Under the pieces are notes generated by a model that was given only the letters and a program-made list of their open reading frames with translations, was not told the origin of the DNA and searched no databases. 64,000 nucleotides of DNA. Source: Flammeovirga kamogawensis. Its GTDB lineage: Bacteria > Bacteroidota > Bacteroidia > Cytophagales > Flammeovirgaceae. The first letter of the stretch is position 1. Each line of letters begins with the position of its first letter. Location of the stretch: the NCBI RefSeq assembly GCF_018736065.1, contig NZ_CP076128.1, positions 3,511,501 through 3,575,500 on the forward strand. The letters run 5' to 3'. Shown piece by piece: positions 48,721 through 54,774 of this stretch. Made by a program: the position numbers and the translations under genes.

Positions 48721-50034
48721 ATGTTTACCGAGGAAATAGAAGAAGTAACAACAATGCACTTTCAATTAGAAGATTTAGCTTCTTTTCGTTTAAAAGCTTG
48801 GGCTTGGGGTAAGAAAGAAGAATACTGTACTTATTTGTACGATCATGATATAGATTATCCAAAGGGTGGTTTTCGTCACTTACTTGCTGTGGGTGCTAAA
48901 AAAGTATGCCCAATGGAAGATGGTTACTCTTTTGAAAGTGTTCAGAAGTTTCATAAACAACACAATACTTGGTTATTCGGACATTGGGGGTATGATCTCA
49001 AGAATGAGGTAGAATTACTATGTTCTGATCATCAAGATGGTATTGACCTACCCGATGCGTTTTTTTATATTCCTAAAACACTATTTATTTTTGGAGAAAA
49101 TGAGGTTGAGATTCAATCTGAAAATGATATTGAATTAATATATCAAGAAGTTTTAACTACTCCGCTACCAGTAGCTTCAACAAATGGGTGGGGAGGAAGA
49201 GTATCTCCAAAAATTTCTCATGCCACTTATATTGATACAGTACAACGTATTCAAGAGCATATTGTAGAAGGTGATGTTTACGAAGTAAATATCTGTATGG
49301 AGTTTTTAGCGAATGAGGCAGATGTAGACCCATTTGATTTATACCTCCGACTTTCTCATTTATCTCCAGCCCCTTTTTCTGCTTTTCATAGAGTAAAAGA
49401 TAAATTTGTAACGTGTTCTTCTCCAGAGCGCTTTATGAAGAAAGAAGGTAATAAAGTAACTTCTCAACCTATTAAAGGTACAATAAAAAGAGGTGCATCA
49501 GCAGAGGAAGATGAATTACTGAAAGAACAACTTCAGAATGATGAAAAAGAGGTTGCAGAGAACATGATGATTGTTGATCTTGTAAGAAATGATTTAGCGA
49601 GAACATGTAAAGCTGGTACTATTAAAGTTCCTGAAATTTTTGGTATATACGGTTTTAGGTCAGTTTTTCAGATGATTTCTACTATTGAAGGAGAAATCAA
49701 AGAAGGAATTCCATTTACTGAAGTAATAAAGAAAGCTTTTCCGATGGGAAGCATGACAGGTGCTCCAAAAGTAATGGCAATGGCATTAATAGAAATGTAC
49801 GAACGCTCTAAAAGAGGTTTATATTCTGGTGCTATTGGTTATATCACTCCTGAGGGAAATTTTGATTTTAATGTTGTGATTAGAAGTGCTCTTTACAATG
49901 CTACAGATAACTATTTATCATTTCAAATAGGAAGTGCTATTACTATAGATTCAGAAGCAGAAAAAGAATATCAAGAATGTTTGTTGAAGGCAAAAGGAAT
50001 GCTTGATGCTTTAAATGCTAAAATTGTATTCTAA
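48721..50034 (+). CDS. pabB: Aminodeoxychorismate synthase component I
   Basis: This 437-residue protein belongs to the chorismate-utilising (anthranilate synthase I / PabB) family. The conserved C-terminal domain (about 175-435) has DVYEVNICMEFLANEA, CSSPERFMKKEG, QPIKGTIKRG (with the family lysine), DLVRNDLARTCKAG, MGSMTGAPKVMAM, GLYSGAIGYITPEGNFDFNVVIRS and IGSAITIDSEAEKEYQE. It makes aminodeoxychorismate for folate synthesis; PabA is not adjacent. A GTG at 48718 directly precedes the ATG, and ATG 48754 is a further possible start. The stop overlaps the convergent TauE gene by 4 nt. Confidence 0.9.
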   Translation: MFTEEIEEVTTMHFQLEDLASFRLKAWAWGKKEEYCTYLYDHDIDYPKGGFRHLLAVGAKKVCPMEDGYSFESVQKFHKQHNTWLFGHWGYDLKNEVELLCSDHQDGIDLPDAFFYIPKTLFIFGENEVEIQSENDIELIYQEVLTTPLPVASTNGWGGRVSPKISHATYIDTVQRIQEHIVEGDVYEVNICMEFLANEADVDPFDLYLRLSHLSPAPFSAFHRVKDKFVTCSSPERFMKKEGNKVTSQPIKGTIKRGASAEEDELLKEQLQNDEKEVAENMMIVDLVRNDLARTCKAGTIKVPEIFGIYGFRSVFQMISTIEGEIKEGIPFTEVIKKAFPMGSMTGAPKVMAMALIEMYERSKRGLYSGAIGYITPEGNFDFNVVIRSALYNATDNYLSFQIGSAITIDSEAEKEYQECLLKAKGMLDALNAKIVF

Positions 50035-50792
50035 TAAAAAAGATCAAATAGAATTTTTATTAAAAAAACAGAAAGAGTAACATTAAAGAAGATTTTTACT
50101 TTTTTACTATCCACTTTCATGGCAATCCCTGCACCAATCCAACTTCCTAAAATAGCACCTAAAATACCTATACAGGCATAAATCCAATCAATTCTACCTA
50201 AATAAGTGAAATAAGCAAATGCAGTTAAGGAAGATACAACAGCTATTGTTTTAGAAAATGCTACAGACTCCATCACTTTCATGGGAGTTAGATAGGAAAA
50301 TAGAAAGAATGAAATTACGCCTGTTCCAGGGCCAAAAAAACCATTGTAAAACCCGATCATAATTATTGTCAGGTATATTAATAGAAGTGGAGTTTTAGCT
50401 TTATTCTCTTCTTTTTTGGGATATCTTTTCTTTAAAAATTCCATACAGAATAAAGAAAGTATAATAAACAAAAGGAGATACAACATCCATTGTGTATTTA
50501 AATATCTACTACATTCTGCTCCACCAATAGCAGCAAACAATGAAATAAAGCAAGATGTGATTAAAAGCTTATCAAAATTAATTATACCACTTTTTATATA
50601 TCTAATAGTGGCAGTTAAGTTTCCTGTAGTTAAAACAGCCTTATTGGTTCCTAATAATAAATATTCAGGTAAACCGAGTGATATCAAAACAGGTAAGGAT
50701 AACATGCCACCCCCACCAGATATTGCAGTGATAACGGATGAAAATATGCATACTAAAAACCAAATTATATATTTTATTATAGGTTCTTCCAA
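50031..50792 (-). CDS. TauE/SafE family membrane permease
   Basis: This 253-residue protein has about eight hydrophobic segments and the paired family motifs: SGGGGMLSLPVLISLGLPEYLLLGTNKAV near the N-terminus (about residues 25-53) and GFYNGFFGPGTGVISFFLFSYL in the second half (about 147-168). TauE/SafE proteins are thought to export sulfite, sulfonates or small organic anions. The gene is alone, and its stop overlaps that of pabB by 4 nt, so their transcripts must meet. No co-encoded substrate clue exists. Confidence 0.92.
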   Translation of the reverse strand: MEEPIIKYIIWFLVCIFSSVITAISGGGGMLSLPVLISLGLPEYLLLGTNKAVLTTGNLTATIRYIKSGIINFDKLLITSCFISLFAAIGGAECSRYLNTQWMLYLLLFIILSLFCMEFLKKRYPKKEENKAKTPLLLIYLTIIMIGFYNGFFGPGTGVISFFLFSYLTPMKVMESVAFSKTIAVVSSLTAFAYFTYLGRIDWIYACIGILGAILGSWIGAGIAMKVDSKKVKIFFNVTLSVFLIKILFDLFY

Positions 50793-50922: not shown

Positions 50923-51921
50923 ATGAAGCTAGAAATAACAAACACCTATTTAAAAGGAAGAATTTTTTGGGGACAAAAGTATTTTAAAAATATACTTTAT
51001 AATTCTCTAAAAGTGTTTTTACCTGCTTTTGTATTTTCATCATTATTATTAGTAGCAAAAATAAACGTAAGTATACTTCTATTGATTGCATCCCCTGTAG
51101 TATTAACCTCTGTATTTATTGGGTTATGTTTTCTTCTTTATGGATCATCCACAATTTATTGCGATGAAGATACCTTTAGATTAAAAATGTTATCAGGACA
51201 TTCAATAGAATTACCTATTAGTAAAATAGCTCAGTTCTATTTAAAGAAAGATATTGCTCGTTCAACTTTACTTGGGAAGCCTTTTGTAACACTTTATTTA
51301 AGAACAAAAGAGGATAATGATATACGTTGTTTTGGTAGGCACTCCTTACCATCAGAAGAAGGACGTAGGTTAGAAGAACATATAGAACAATTTATAGGAA
51401 TTGAAGATCATTATATTCATGGAGAATACCATGAAAGGGGAATCCAAAAAGATTTTTTTACAGCAAAAAAATCTATTGAAATAAATACCTCAGAAGAAAC
51501 AATAACATTAAATACAGAGGAGTATTTGATAGAACGAAAATTTCAGTATGAATGGAATAAAGGAAGAATTGATCATGCACTTTGGGCAACAAATGGAACA
51601 GACGATGTCAAAATTTATGTCGTAAATGACCAGTATTACCTTGAAAAGAGTATCAATTTTTCAAAATTACTAGCCCCATATATTAAAAATAATTGTATTG
51701 ATTTAGATGAAATTCCTTTAACTCTAATGTATGAAGATATGTCATTTGTAAAAGCAACTTCCGACAAGGGTAAATTTTTTAAAAGAGATTTTGAAAAAGA
51801 AGAAGTTAATGTTGAGCATATTATGTTTTTAGCATCAACCGATTACCTTAGAATCTGCAAATACGGTAAAATTAATATTGAAATCACTCACGGTAAACTA
51901 GCATTTCAAAATGAATATTAG
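50923..51921 (+). CDS. Membrane protein of unknown function, pair member 1
   Basis: This 332-residue protein has two adjacent hydrophobic segments at about residues 30-48 and 50-72, then a soluble region. The soluble part opens with IYCDEDTFRLKMLSGHSIELPISKIAQFYL, like a pleckstrin-homology-type beta sandwich used in small membrane proteins, and later has LNTEEYLIERKFQYEWNKGRIDHALWAT. No recognised catalytic motif is seen. A remote similarity of this last part to DUF4178 is possible but not claimed. It overlaps the next gene, a likely paralogue, by 11 nt, which suggests co-translation. Confidence 0.72.
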   Translation: MKLEITNTYLKGRIFWGQKYFKNILYNSLKVFLPAFVFSSLLLVAKINVSILLLIASPVVLTSVFIGLCFLLYGSSTIYCDEDTFRLKMLSGHSIELPISKIAQFYLKKDIARSTLLGKPFVTLYLRTKEDNDIRCFGRHSLPSEEGRRLEEHIEQFIGIEDHYIHGEYHERGIQKDFFTAKKSIEINTSEETITLNTEEYLIERKFQYEWNKGRIDHALWATNGTDDVKIYVVNDQYYLEKSINFSKLLAPYIKNNCIDLDEIPLTLMYEDMSFVKATSDKGKFFKRDFEKEEVNVEHIMFLASTDYLRICKYGKINIEITHGKLAFQNEY

Positions 51922-52972
51922 AGAAACAAGAAGAGGGGGGACGATCTTAAATGTTCAAGCATTTTTGGCTCCTTCAATTTGTCAAGATTTTAAAAGGAAA
52001 TTATATTTTATACACTTAGGAATTTGGGCGGTATTATTATTATTTTCTTTGGTGTATTTAGTAATTCCTGCCGTTTCTATTATTCTAATAGGCATAATAG
52101 CCTTCGATTTTTTTAAAATTTATAAGTTGGGGGATAAAGAGGTTAGTATCCAATTTTATATACTTGGAGAGACTTTAATGGTACGTAATCATGATGCTAA
52201 TCCAGACATAACTTATGTCGAAGATTTTAAAGTAGATGATATTGAACAATTCTTTATCAAAAAAACTGGTGAAGATAAATATGGTTTTTTTGCCATTGTA
52301 GGCAGAAGACAAAGAGTTTCAAAACAGATTCTTGAGTTTTCTTCGGAGCGTCTTCATGAAATCCACGATCTTAAAGTAATTATTCATGAGAAGTTAGACG
52401 TTGATGTACATGAGTTAGAGGGGGAGTACGAAGGATATTCAAAAAAGGAGATCGCAGAACCTAAAAGAAATAGACAATATTTTAAATTGTTTAATCAAGA
52501 TATTAAAGATATAAGGCAACGTGGAGTGATTACATTACAAGGCGATGATTATCAAATTCATTCAATATCACAGATTGATTGGGAAAATGGATTTAGTAGT
52601 TTAAAGTTTGCTTTAGATGAAGAGAGTTCCCTTTTCTATTATTCTTCTGTGTCTAAAATGTACCTGATTAAAGAACAAAATATACATTATTTATTCGACC
52701 TTAATATGTATCATTTAGCAGATGATTTATCTAATATTGAGAATAAGTTAGAGGTAGATGGAGTCGAGTATTATTTATGTGCGATCAATCAAGGTAAATA
52801 CTTTTCTGAATCGGCTTTAGAAGATGAAGGAGTTTATCAATTGCTTTTTGAAAATGATGAGCAAGAGAAGTTTTTGAGGTTTATTATTATCAACAATACT
52901 ATTAAAGTGTATAAAGGAGAACGAATATTACTACATCAATTACAAAGTATACTACCTCAAGTATCTTTTTAA
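51911..52972 (+). CDS. Membrane protein of unknown function, pair member 2
   Basis: This 353-residue protein repeats the layout of its upstream neighbour: two hydrophobic segments (about residues 33-52 and 54-73), a beta-rich block with YVEDFKVDDIEQFFI and FAIVGRRQRVSKQILEF, then a region with LQGDDYQIHSISQIDWENGFSSLKFAL. The related segments HGEYHERG (first) and EGEYEGYS (second) lie at equivalent places. The start ATG lies inside the previous gene, 11 nt before its end. The stop overlaps the convergent SLC13-type gene by 4 nt. Function unknown; a two-subunit complex is an inference. Confidence 0.72.
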   Translation: MNIRETRRGGTILNVQAFLAPSICQDFKRKLYFIHLGIWAVLLLFSLVYLVIPAVSIILIGIIAFDFFKIYKLGDKEVSIQFYILGETLMVRNHDANPDITYVEDFKVDDIEQFFIKKTGEDKYGFFAIVGRRQRVSKQILEFSSERLHEIHDLKVIIHEKLDVDVHELEGEYEGYSKKEIAEPKRNRQYFKLFNQDIKDIRQRGVITLQGDDYQIHSISQIDWENGFSSLKFALDEESSLFYYSSVSKMYLIKEQNIHYLFDLNMYHLADDLSNIENKLEVDGVEYYLCAINQGKYFSESALEDEGVYQLLFENDEQEKFLRFIIINNTIKVYKGERILLHQLQSILPQVSF

Positions 52973-54774
52973 ATTAAACCATAATAGAAAATGATAAAGG
53001 CAATACAGATAGTACAATAAATACCCATTAGAGGTAAGCCTATCTTCATGAAATCTTTAGTTCTATATCCACCAGGGCCATAAACAATCCAATTTGTTTG
53101 ATAACTCACAGGAGTTAAAAATGCAGCAGAAGCACCAAAAGCAATTGCTACAAAGAAAGGAGTACTTGGTAATTCTAATAGTTGACTTAAAGAATAAGCT
53201 ATTGGAAAAGCGATAGCAATTGCAGCAACATTGGTAACAAAAGAGGTAAGTAAAATTGTTACCAAGAATAGTCCAATTAATACACCTATTACACCAAACG
53301 GTAAGAAAACTTTAATAAAAAATGTACTGACAATATGAGAAGCACCTGTACTAATAAATGCTTCTCCTAAGGTTAATGCCGACATTAATAAAACAACTAA
53401 ATCAAGGTCTAGTTCTTTATTTATAGCATCAAAAGTAGTTGCTTTTATTAATAATAAACCTGCTAATGCGAAAATAGCACCTGATAGAAGCTCGATAATA
53501 CTAGAAGCAACTAAGAAAATTAAAACGCCTAAGAAACCAAGGTATATCCATTTATGATTCTCCTTAATAGTCGGTTTTTTATTTTCTATGGTAGATAAAA
53601 CATAAAATTCTTTATATAAACTGATATTAGAAAAGAAAGTATCTCCTGCTGATATTAAGAGCATATCTCCAGCCTGAAGACTAATTTTATCTAGCTCACC
53701 AGTAACTTTTTGCCCATTTCTATGGATGGCAACTAATTCAACATCATAAGTTTCTTTAAAATTGATTTTACTTAGTTTTTTACCAGATAATGCTGAGTTG
53801 GCAGGGATTACAGCTTCTACAATTTTAGAATCATCTTCATGATTAGGTAAATCTAATCCTATATCAGAATTTACAATTACCATAATATTTTCTGACTGTC
53901 CCATAAACATCAATTGATCTTTAGGACGAACAATAAGTTCATCTGGAATAGGTGTAATTACTTCACCATTTCTATGTATTTCTATAAGGTATGCACCTTC
54001 AAAATCTCTAATTTTTGTATTAACTATTTTCTTACCAACAGTTCTTGATGAGCGATGTACTTCTAAGGCCATTAAATACTCTGGAGCAATGGCTTTTGCA
54101 TCGTCAAAAACCTCTTTATTTTCTGGTAAAAGATTGTATCCAAAGGTTACTAAATAAAGAATACCAAAAAAAGTGACCAAAAGTCCTAAATAAAGGAAGT
54201 CTGTATAGGCTAAACTCGGTAGTTTGTTCGTTTCTATAAAACCATTGAGTACTAAATTGGTAGATGTACCGATAAGCGTAATCATACCACCAAGAATAGT
54301 ACTAAAAGAAAGTGGTATCAATAGTTTAGAAGGATGTGCGCCCATTTTTTTACACCAGTTGTAAACATAGGGTGTTAAACCTGCAACAACAGGGGTATTG
54401 TTAGTAAATGAAGATAGAAAGGCGGCAAAAGTTGTAATTTTTAATAAAAATAATTTTGGGTCTTTCGATTTTCCAATAATACTATTTAAAGTCTCTTCTG
54501 TATTGAATGTATGATAAAGGTGAGTAGTCACAATAACTAGCACAATGATTGTAGCTATTGAAGGGTTACTCATAGATTTTAAAAGGTTTTCTGCAGTAAC
54601 AATACCACAAAGCATAAGTGAAACGACACTTATAAAAAATATTGTCGAAGGTTTACCCCATTCACGTAATAAGGAGATAACCACTACGATTACTGTAAAT
54701 AAAACAATCCATTTTTCGAGGCCGATTGGTAGAAAGTGATCAATTCGAAGAAGGGGTAACAAGAGATAAGGCAT
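52969..54774 (-). CDS. SLC13/citrate-transporter-like permease with two TrkA_C domains
   Basis: This 601-residue inner-membrane protein has two blocks of hydrophobic segments (about residues 1-215 and 400-601) around a cytoplasmic insert with two RCK_C/TrkA_C-like domains (about 228-310 and 315-395; EVHRSSRTVGKKI, IPDELIVRPKDQLMFMGQ, LVAIHRNGQKV, LQAGDMLLISAG). Transport motifs include SFTNNTPVVAGLTPYV and TSFVTNVAAIAIAFPIA, the SNT-type repeats that bind sodium and a dicarboxylate, sulfate or similar anion in this superfamily. Regulation by the TrkA_C domains is likely. The substrate cannot be named. Confidence 0.9.
   Translation of the reverse strand: MPYLLLPLLRIDHFLPIGLEKWIVLFTVIVVVISLLREWGKPSTIFFISVVSLMLCGIVTAENLLKSMSNPSIATIIVLVIVTTHLYHTFNTEETLNSIIGKSKDPKLFLLKITTFAAFLSSFTNNTPVVAGLTPYVYNWCKKMGAHPSKLLIPLSFSTILGGMITLIGTSTNLVLNGFIETNKLPSLAYTDFLYLGLLVTFFGILYLVTFGYNLLPENKEVFDDAKAIAPEYLMALEVHRSSRTVGKKIVNTKIRDFEGAYLIEIHRNGEVITPIPDELIVRPKDQLMFMGQSENIMVIVNSDIGLDLPNHEDDSKIVEAVIPANSALSGKKLSKINFKETYDVELVAIHRNGQKVTGELDKISLQAGDMLLISAGDTFFSNISLYKEFYVLSTIENKKPTIKENHKWIYLGFLGVLIFLVASSIIELLSGAIFALAGLLLIKATTFDAINKELDLDLVVLLMSALTLGEAFISTGASHIVSTFFIKVFLPFGVIGVLIGLFLVTILLTSFVTNVAAIAIAFPIAYSLSQLLELPSTPFFVAIAFGASAAFLTPVSYQTNWIVYGPGGYRTKDFMKIGLPLMGIYCTICIAFIIFYYGLI

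Follow-up and report, generated by a model that had tools for sequence, protein, structure and literature searches.

Introduction

Some bacterial membrane proteins with PH domains appear to work in pairs. YdbS/YdbT and DdE/DdF (bPH_2) are each encoded by adjacent genes and combine membrane helices with PH domains. In the available excerpt of PMC8657885, deletion of either DdE or DdF blocks leaderless bacteriocin export, both partners thus being required, and the excerpt of PMC3498285 lists ydbS and ydbT as genes of the sigma-W regulon. Two helices within a PH-like domain are a property of EROS/CYBC1 and Ycf4, which the consulted part of PMC13296129 describes as a chaperone of NOX2 and as a photosystem I factor, respectively, with EROS contacting NOX2 via its two helices and strands. 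DUF4178 (PF13785) is a beta-rich, predicted intracellular protein that the accessible part of PMC11237479 places in an operon with PspA, CesT/Tir, a spermine/spermidine-synthase-like protein and DUF350; in the full-text literature searched, no other paper mentions DUF4178.

Here, we describe two neighboring genes, A and B, in a 64,000-nt forward-strand stretch of Flammeovirga kamogawensis NZ_CP076128.1 (positions 3,511,501-3,575,500; genome G000, 6.97 Mb), hereafter the window. As in YdbS/YdbT and DdE/DdF, their products are predicted to have membrane helices and PH-like domains. In contrast to these pairs, A and B match none of the Pfam families bPH_2, bPH_10 and DUF2244 over cut-off, and in the models their strands precede the hairpin. 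To our knowledge, YdbS/YdbT and DdE/DdF carry no DUF4178. The preliminary description recognised neither protein and called the pair an undescribed module, a view that is weakened by the finding that both domains have relatives: DUF4178 proteins for one, and proteins with a Zn-ribbon, two membrane helices and a PH-like domain (Zn-ribbon/2TM/PH) for the other. The pair is a fast-diverging combination of two known, poorly understood domains, found here in one genus.

Results

The gene pair and its predicted architecture

The two open reading frames and their 11-nt overlap on one strand were found as first described (Table 1). The flanking genes, at 50031-50792 upstream of A and at 52969-54774 downstream of B (the latter overlapping the end of B by 4 nt), both run on the opposite strand, so that A and B form a separate unit of their own. 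Conservation backs the start codon of B, with M1 and E5 invariant in 8/8 B proteins. Across the eight A-B pairs found, the gaps were -11, -11, +10, -1, +2, +3, -4 and +3 nt. What is conserved is adjacency and A-B order, and the 11-nt overlap itself varies; this spread, between an 11-nt overlap and a 10-nt space, weakens the proposal that the overlap leads to products in a fixed ratio.

Table 1. Features of the A-B gene pair in window coordinates
Feature	Coordinates	Strand	Basis
Gene A, 332 aa: 2TM/PH-like domain, linker, DUF4178-like domain	50923..51921	+	
Gene B, 353 aa, architecture as gene A	51911..52972	+	
Overlap of the A and B reading frames, 11 nt	51911..51921	+	
A, predicted N-terminal 2TM/PH-like domain, residues 1-161	50923..51405	+	Model, fold matches, hhalign to Zn-ribbon/2TM/PH proteins
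A, predicted membrane hairpin, helices 16-43 and 49-71, between early and late PH-like strands	50968..51135	+	Model, hydropathy
A, GEY linker motif, residues 167-169, invariant in 8/8 A proteins	51421..51429	+	
A, DUF4178-like domain, residues 193-329	51499..51909	+	hhalign 93.4% (A-type alignment), model; no Pfam match alone
B, predicted N-terminal 2TM/PH-like domain, residues 1-165	51911..52405	+	Model, fold matches
B, predicted membrane hairpin, helices 21-48 and 53-71	51971..52123	+	Model
B, GEY linker motif, residues 171-173, exact in only 2/8 B proteins	52421..52429	+	
B, DUF4178 match, protein 206-339, profile 5-134 of 136	52526..52927	+	Pfam E 1.2e-4, 22.7 bits, cut-off 25

Structure models from the family alignment (pLDDT 82.7 and pTM 0.48 for A; pLDDT 82.2 and pTM 0.47 for B) agree on two strands, a helical hairpin, more strands and a capping helix, followed by a low-confidence linker and an all-beta second domain; the modest pTM makes the arrangement of the domains uncertain. 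Both models and the sequence are in line with the described succession of two membrane segments, a beta-rich block, GEY and a second soluble region. In a simple hydropathy scan, A has two segments above threshold and B has one, at a place where its model shows two helices. Most of the structural matches listed for either model are PH/PTB/FERM folds (VIA, mostly Z 6-9), and, as had been guessed, the first block is modelled as a PH-like domain that surrounds the hairpin. Because most fold matches span from about residue 4-10 to about residue 160-175, the strands before the hairpin appear, in the models, to form one PH-like domain with those behind it. This PH-like fold, a seven-strand beta sandwich with a C-terminal helix cap, is seen in predicted models only.

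Just C-terminal of the PH-like domain, GEY stands at an equivalent place in A and B. The equivalence of position that had been pointed out therefore holds, and in the A type the motif is invariant as well, but only two B proteins keep it exactly. The B linker is partly basic and has its own invariant residues (P184, K185, R188, F191, F194, Q196, D200, I201 and R202).

Paralogy and distribution

A BLASTP comparison of A with B was marginal (E 0.02). Comparing the profile of eight A proteins with that of eight B proteins gave 97.2% (E 3.3e-11) over 239 columns, which begin just behind the hairpin and take in the second domain; by this measure A and B are clearly paralogues, as the preliminary description had held. 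In a tree of 27 of the 32 proteins found (the G007 chimera described below, two fragments, a 201-aa truncated ORF and a 598-aa protein were left out), A forms one clade (100/100) and B another (100/97). As judged from the tree, the A/B duplication is older than the split of the seven genomes that carry the pair. The pairings G000+G006, G010+G005 and G008a+G009 are common to both clades. B_G003 groups with B_G008b (98/97), a grouping that A_G003 lacks, and A_G008b goes with A_G008a and A_G009 (91/88); since the placement of G003 and G008b differs between the clades, co-inheritance is imperfect.

Co-occurrence in relatives had been suggested as a check. A and B each matched 9/18 genomes of the taxonomic family at E<=0.001, namely all nine of the genus, with no match at that threshold in the nine others. 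An intact A-B pair occurs at eight loci in 7/9 Flammeovirga genomes (G000, G006, G003, G010, G005, G009 and, twice, G008), always in the order A-B, G008 reading A-B-A-B. The pair occupies a shared chromosomal site, with small rearrangements beside it, in G000, G006, G003, G010 and G005. Genome G007 has an in-frame A/B chimera (L066:9559-10299) of 246 aa, made of residues 1-181 of A and 61 residues of the B C-terminus; it lacks most of DUF4178, and the borders share a 7-base match in the G009 relative. In the draft genome G004 (460 contigs), no A-B pair was found; at L067:6963-13958, it has five tandem related full-length genes (364-393 aa) followed by two fragments. Found here in one genus only, broken in G007 and not found in the G004 draft, the pair is probably dispensable.

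More distant members were also seen. A search of the window's own genome returned no second A and one distant B relative, on contig C2, where it is part of a distant gene pair. Distant relatives form a three-gene unit in G004, and a similar unit lies on C2. In the three-gene units at L072:5496-9320 and L068:9075-12884, a protein of about 600 aa precedes a distant family pair. These proteins (P0003/P0004) were considered as a hairpin-PH domain with two DUF4178-like blocks; the profile scores were low and biased, Pfam found no DUF4178, and we do not claim this.

Single family members were found in G008 (X_G008, L071) and G005 (Z_G005, L069), and outside the genus there is L082, full-length by eye. 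The family profile matches L082 over the N-domain only; its C-terminus is DUF4178-like by eye only, with no DUF4178 match in Pfam, and L082 as query recovered only N-domain relatives, in 5/395 genomes including its own. Such single members would suit a pair that is just an old tandem duplication, with A and B each acting alone or as a homo-oligomer and no obligate A-B complex. We regard this as doubtful, since the two types separated before the seven genomes diverged and are still paired, in one order, at eight loci, since G008 has two pairs side by side, and since the A type and the B type each have invariant linker residues of their own.

Neighborhood, divergence and selection

The eight window neighbors searched gave MiaE, a chorismate-binding enzyme, TauE, CitMHS, a PAS/GAF protein, FMN_red and Beta_elim_lyase, with ThiC further off; PspA, CesT/Tir, DUF350 and spermidine synthase were not among them. 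At the other loci, the search covered part of the neighbors. With no PSP-type gene next to the pair in the window, a link of the pair to envelope stress would draw only on the company that DUF4178 keeps elsewhere. In the window and in G006, the pair has the TauE/SafE transporter gene (PF01925, window 50031-50792) upstream; in G010 and G005 that gene lies downstream, and in G003 it is absent from the site. In G008, an RHS-repeat ORF is found 3.7 kb from the A-B-A-B cluster.

At the shared site, A and B have diverged more than the genes around them. Identity to G003 was 29% for A and 38-40% for B versus 52-96% for 12 neighbors, and identity to G005 was 33% for A and 31% for B versus 55-79% for seven neighbors. 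Rows of the neighbor comparison with a small aligned part, including those of A in G003 and of A and B in G010, were dropped as end-gap artefacts, and the A/B identities were then taken from separate comparisons. Between the window and G006, the closest relative found, whole-gene dN/dS was 0.172 for A and 0.092 for B, with 0.026-0.075 for six neighbors. These values indicate that both genes are under selection; by the substitution rates, the pair is less constrained than the surrounding genes, yet under purifying selection.

Rapid divergence, tandem arrays and copy-number change would also be explained if A and B formed a self-protection or defence module that gives immunity to toxins, antimicrobial peptides or phage, and the low identities to G003, the five-copy array of G004, the A-B-A-B cluster of G008 and the deletion chimera of G007 fit such a role. 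The searched neighbors are, however, ordinary metabolic, transport and sensory genes, PADLOC matched 1/28 family members (E 0.0024; not A), and dN/dS lies well below 1, all of which makes a defence module unlikely.

The C-terminal domain as a divergent DUF4178

In a single-sequence scan, A had no Pfam match up to E 10, and for B, DUF4178 was the sole family matched at E<=10, somewhat under its curated cut-off (Table 1); neither protein matched NCBIfam. Among the 28 family members, 13 matched DUF4178 at E<=1, and two members of the G004 array exceeded the cut-off (31.4 and 26.7 bits). An hhalign comparison of the family profile with an alignment of nine DUF4178 proteins gave 98.8% (E 8e-17); for the A-type profile by itself, the value was 93.4%. 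By these profile comparisons, the C-terminal domain of A and B is homologous to DUF4178 over the whole domain, which bears out, in the form of a divergent DUF4178, the guess of a DUF4178-like fold. No confident match to a characterised family emerged, DUF4178 being known yet uncharacterised. Weak structural rows for a lipocalin/FABP fold of this domain (CRBP for A; FABP and C8gamma for B) had probabilities of at most 0.38, and we do not claim that fold.

Searching the phylum with the family profile (at most five candidates scored per genome; hits in at least 16/395 genomes, the window's own included) recovered stand-alone DUF4178 proteins at about profile positions 176-352 (best E 1.2e-19), one of them from the window's own genome (E 6.9e-17). 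DUF4178 as such is present in 18/18 genomes of the taxonomic family; in the window's genome, three DUF4178 loci exceed the cut-off, and two of them have open frames of about 300 aa. Stand-alone DUF4178 proteins (~185 aa; found in PspA, CesT/Tir, DUF350 and spermidine-synthase operons) can be aligned to the C-terminal domain of A and B along their entire domain. Unlike these proteins, A and B stay below the Pfam cut-off, are predicted to be membrane-anchored, are fused to a PH-like domain, come as a pair and lie outside such operons. DUF4178 proteins of ~290-320 aa from the same taxonomic family (L058, L048, L050 and L054) resemble A and B in their C-terminal DUF4178 (39.9-53.6 bits) and, by eye, in their hydrophobic N-terminal stretches, but have no other Pfam family at E<=0.01 and, by eye, no GEY linker.

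The operon company of DUF4178 recurs in our data: CesT_Tir_1 and PspA lie upstream of DUF4178 in L073, and PspA lies beside it in L075, both in agreement with the excerpt of PMC11237479. In the window's genome, an ORF that looks lipoprotein-like by eye and a Spermine_synth protein come after a DUF4178 gene, and DUF350 lies at a distance of about 59 kb.

The N-terminal domain and its relatives

Relatives of the N-domain are Zn-ribbon/2TM/PH proteins from other genomes of the class (L074 and L076), to which the 28-member family profile aligned at 97.1% (hhalign). They have the same N-domain, ending in LGI..D..V.GE like the A/B linker, but differ from A and B in having a Zn-ribbon-like Cys motif in front and no DUF4178 behind. 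L074 scored 21.6 bits against bPH_10, under the cut-off of 27, and among the matches listed (25 of 27 families) the 28 family members had one weak bPH_5 match (E 0.077). As a query, the L076 protein had matches in 1/198 genomes of the class, which suggests that the Zn-ribbon form is uncommon or has diverged too far for a single-sequence search. Genes for Zn-ribbon-like membrane proteins adjoin CHAT-domain proteins (PF12770; 177.7 and 179.1 bits) at L074:1-1938, on the same strand, and at L104:1498-3514, in convergent orientation. N-domain relatives in open frames of ~190-200 aa also occur in neighboring pairs or triplets (L098/L102 in G484; L099/L101/L103 in G706).

By fold, 8kei_D, a chain of the NOX2/p22phox/EROS entry, ranks first in the PDB for A (Foldseek E 2.1e-3, probability 1.00). 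In VIA, it aligned to model residues 1-161 with Z 11.1 and rmsd 4.5 over 137 residues of a 164-residue chain, the next row having Z 8.1. We take chain D to be EROS from its length and fold. For B, 8kei_D is the first VIA row too (Z 9.7, rmsd 8.2), but tied with 3hsa (9.1) and 8xgc_M (8.8, from a FACT-containing entry), and 8kei is absent among the best 50 Foldseek rows listed; no Foldseek match of either model reached E 0.001. At the sequence level, neither PF15169 (EROS/CYBC1) nor PF02392 (Ycf4) matched over cut-off in any of the nine genus genomes. The two profiles gave nine weak rows in the genus, a single one of them in the A/B family (13.3 bits); the family member L071 matched PF15169 at E 0.082 (residues 106-176 to profile 97-164). 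PF02392 passed its cut-off in 1/14 control genomes, presumably that of Synechococcus elongatus, and a PDB sequence search with the family profile returned one chance row (E 8.5). EROS/CYBC1 and Ycf4 resemble the models of A and B, that of A more clearly, in carrying two helices within a PH-like domain; they differ from A and B in having no DUF4178 and in sequence matches below cut-off. In the models, the EROS likeness reads as a shared arrangement, and we claim no ancestry.

Although the ranking of 8kei_D for both proteins, the L071 match and the way in which EROS meets NOX2 would all suit a bacterial EROS/Ycf4-type chaperone, in which A and B clamp a polytopic membrane protein during its assembly, hairpin and PH-like strands touch the client, and DUF4178 recruits or times release, we consider this quite improbable in view of the sub-threshold Foldseek and Pfam matches and the tied rows of B, the more so as EROS may be the sole hairpin-in-PH protein with a solved structure.

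Discussion

Returning to the membrane PH pairs, we tentatively propose, at somewhat less than even confidence, that A and B are the two subunits of a hetero-oligomeric inner-membrane complex with cytoplasmic DUF4178 domains that acts, YdbS/YdbT-like, in envelope or membrane-protein homeostasis. The data bear on the predicted architecture, the paralogy, the DUF4178 homology, the conservation of the pair and purifying selection; what we infer beyond them, namely topology, complex formation, partner and function, can be put as follows. The anciently duplicated subunits of one complex would each insert a two-helix hairpin into the inner membrane, and the flanking strands would complete a PH-like domain at its cytoplasmic face. 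A flexible linker of the GEY type would carry the DUF4178 beta domain in the cytoplasm. A would most likely assemble with B, as in the paired membrane PH proteins YdbS/YdbT and DdE/DdF; co-inheritance and close spacing of the two genes make such joint assembly the most likely course, and the heteromeric membrane complex that the preliminary description had considered would fit the co-inheritance. The complex would most likely serve envelope or membrane-protein homeostasis, a role suggested by the operons with PspA, CesT/Tir, DUF350 and spermidine-synthase-like proteins in which DUF4178 occurs elsewhere. The PH/hairpin part may hold a membrane or protein partner, which the DUF4178 part would link to cytoplasmic stress components. 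As a long shot, EROS and Ycf4 may belong to an older bacterial class of hairpin-in-PH chaperones, of which A and B would be a paired, DUF4178-armed branch that links membrane-protein assembly to a PspA/polyamine envelope-stress network.

The value of the pair lies mainly in the handle that it offers on DUF4178 and on the question of the EROS-like domain. DUF4178 is an uncharacterised domain of envelope-stress operons, and A and B, as a naturally membrane-tethered, paired DUF4178, may help to find where the domain works and what its partners are. If the EROS-like fold were to reflect ancestry, bacteria other than cyanobacteria would contain relatives of a human immune chaperone and of a photosystem assembly factor.
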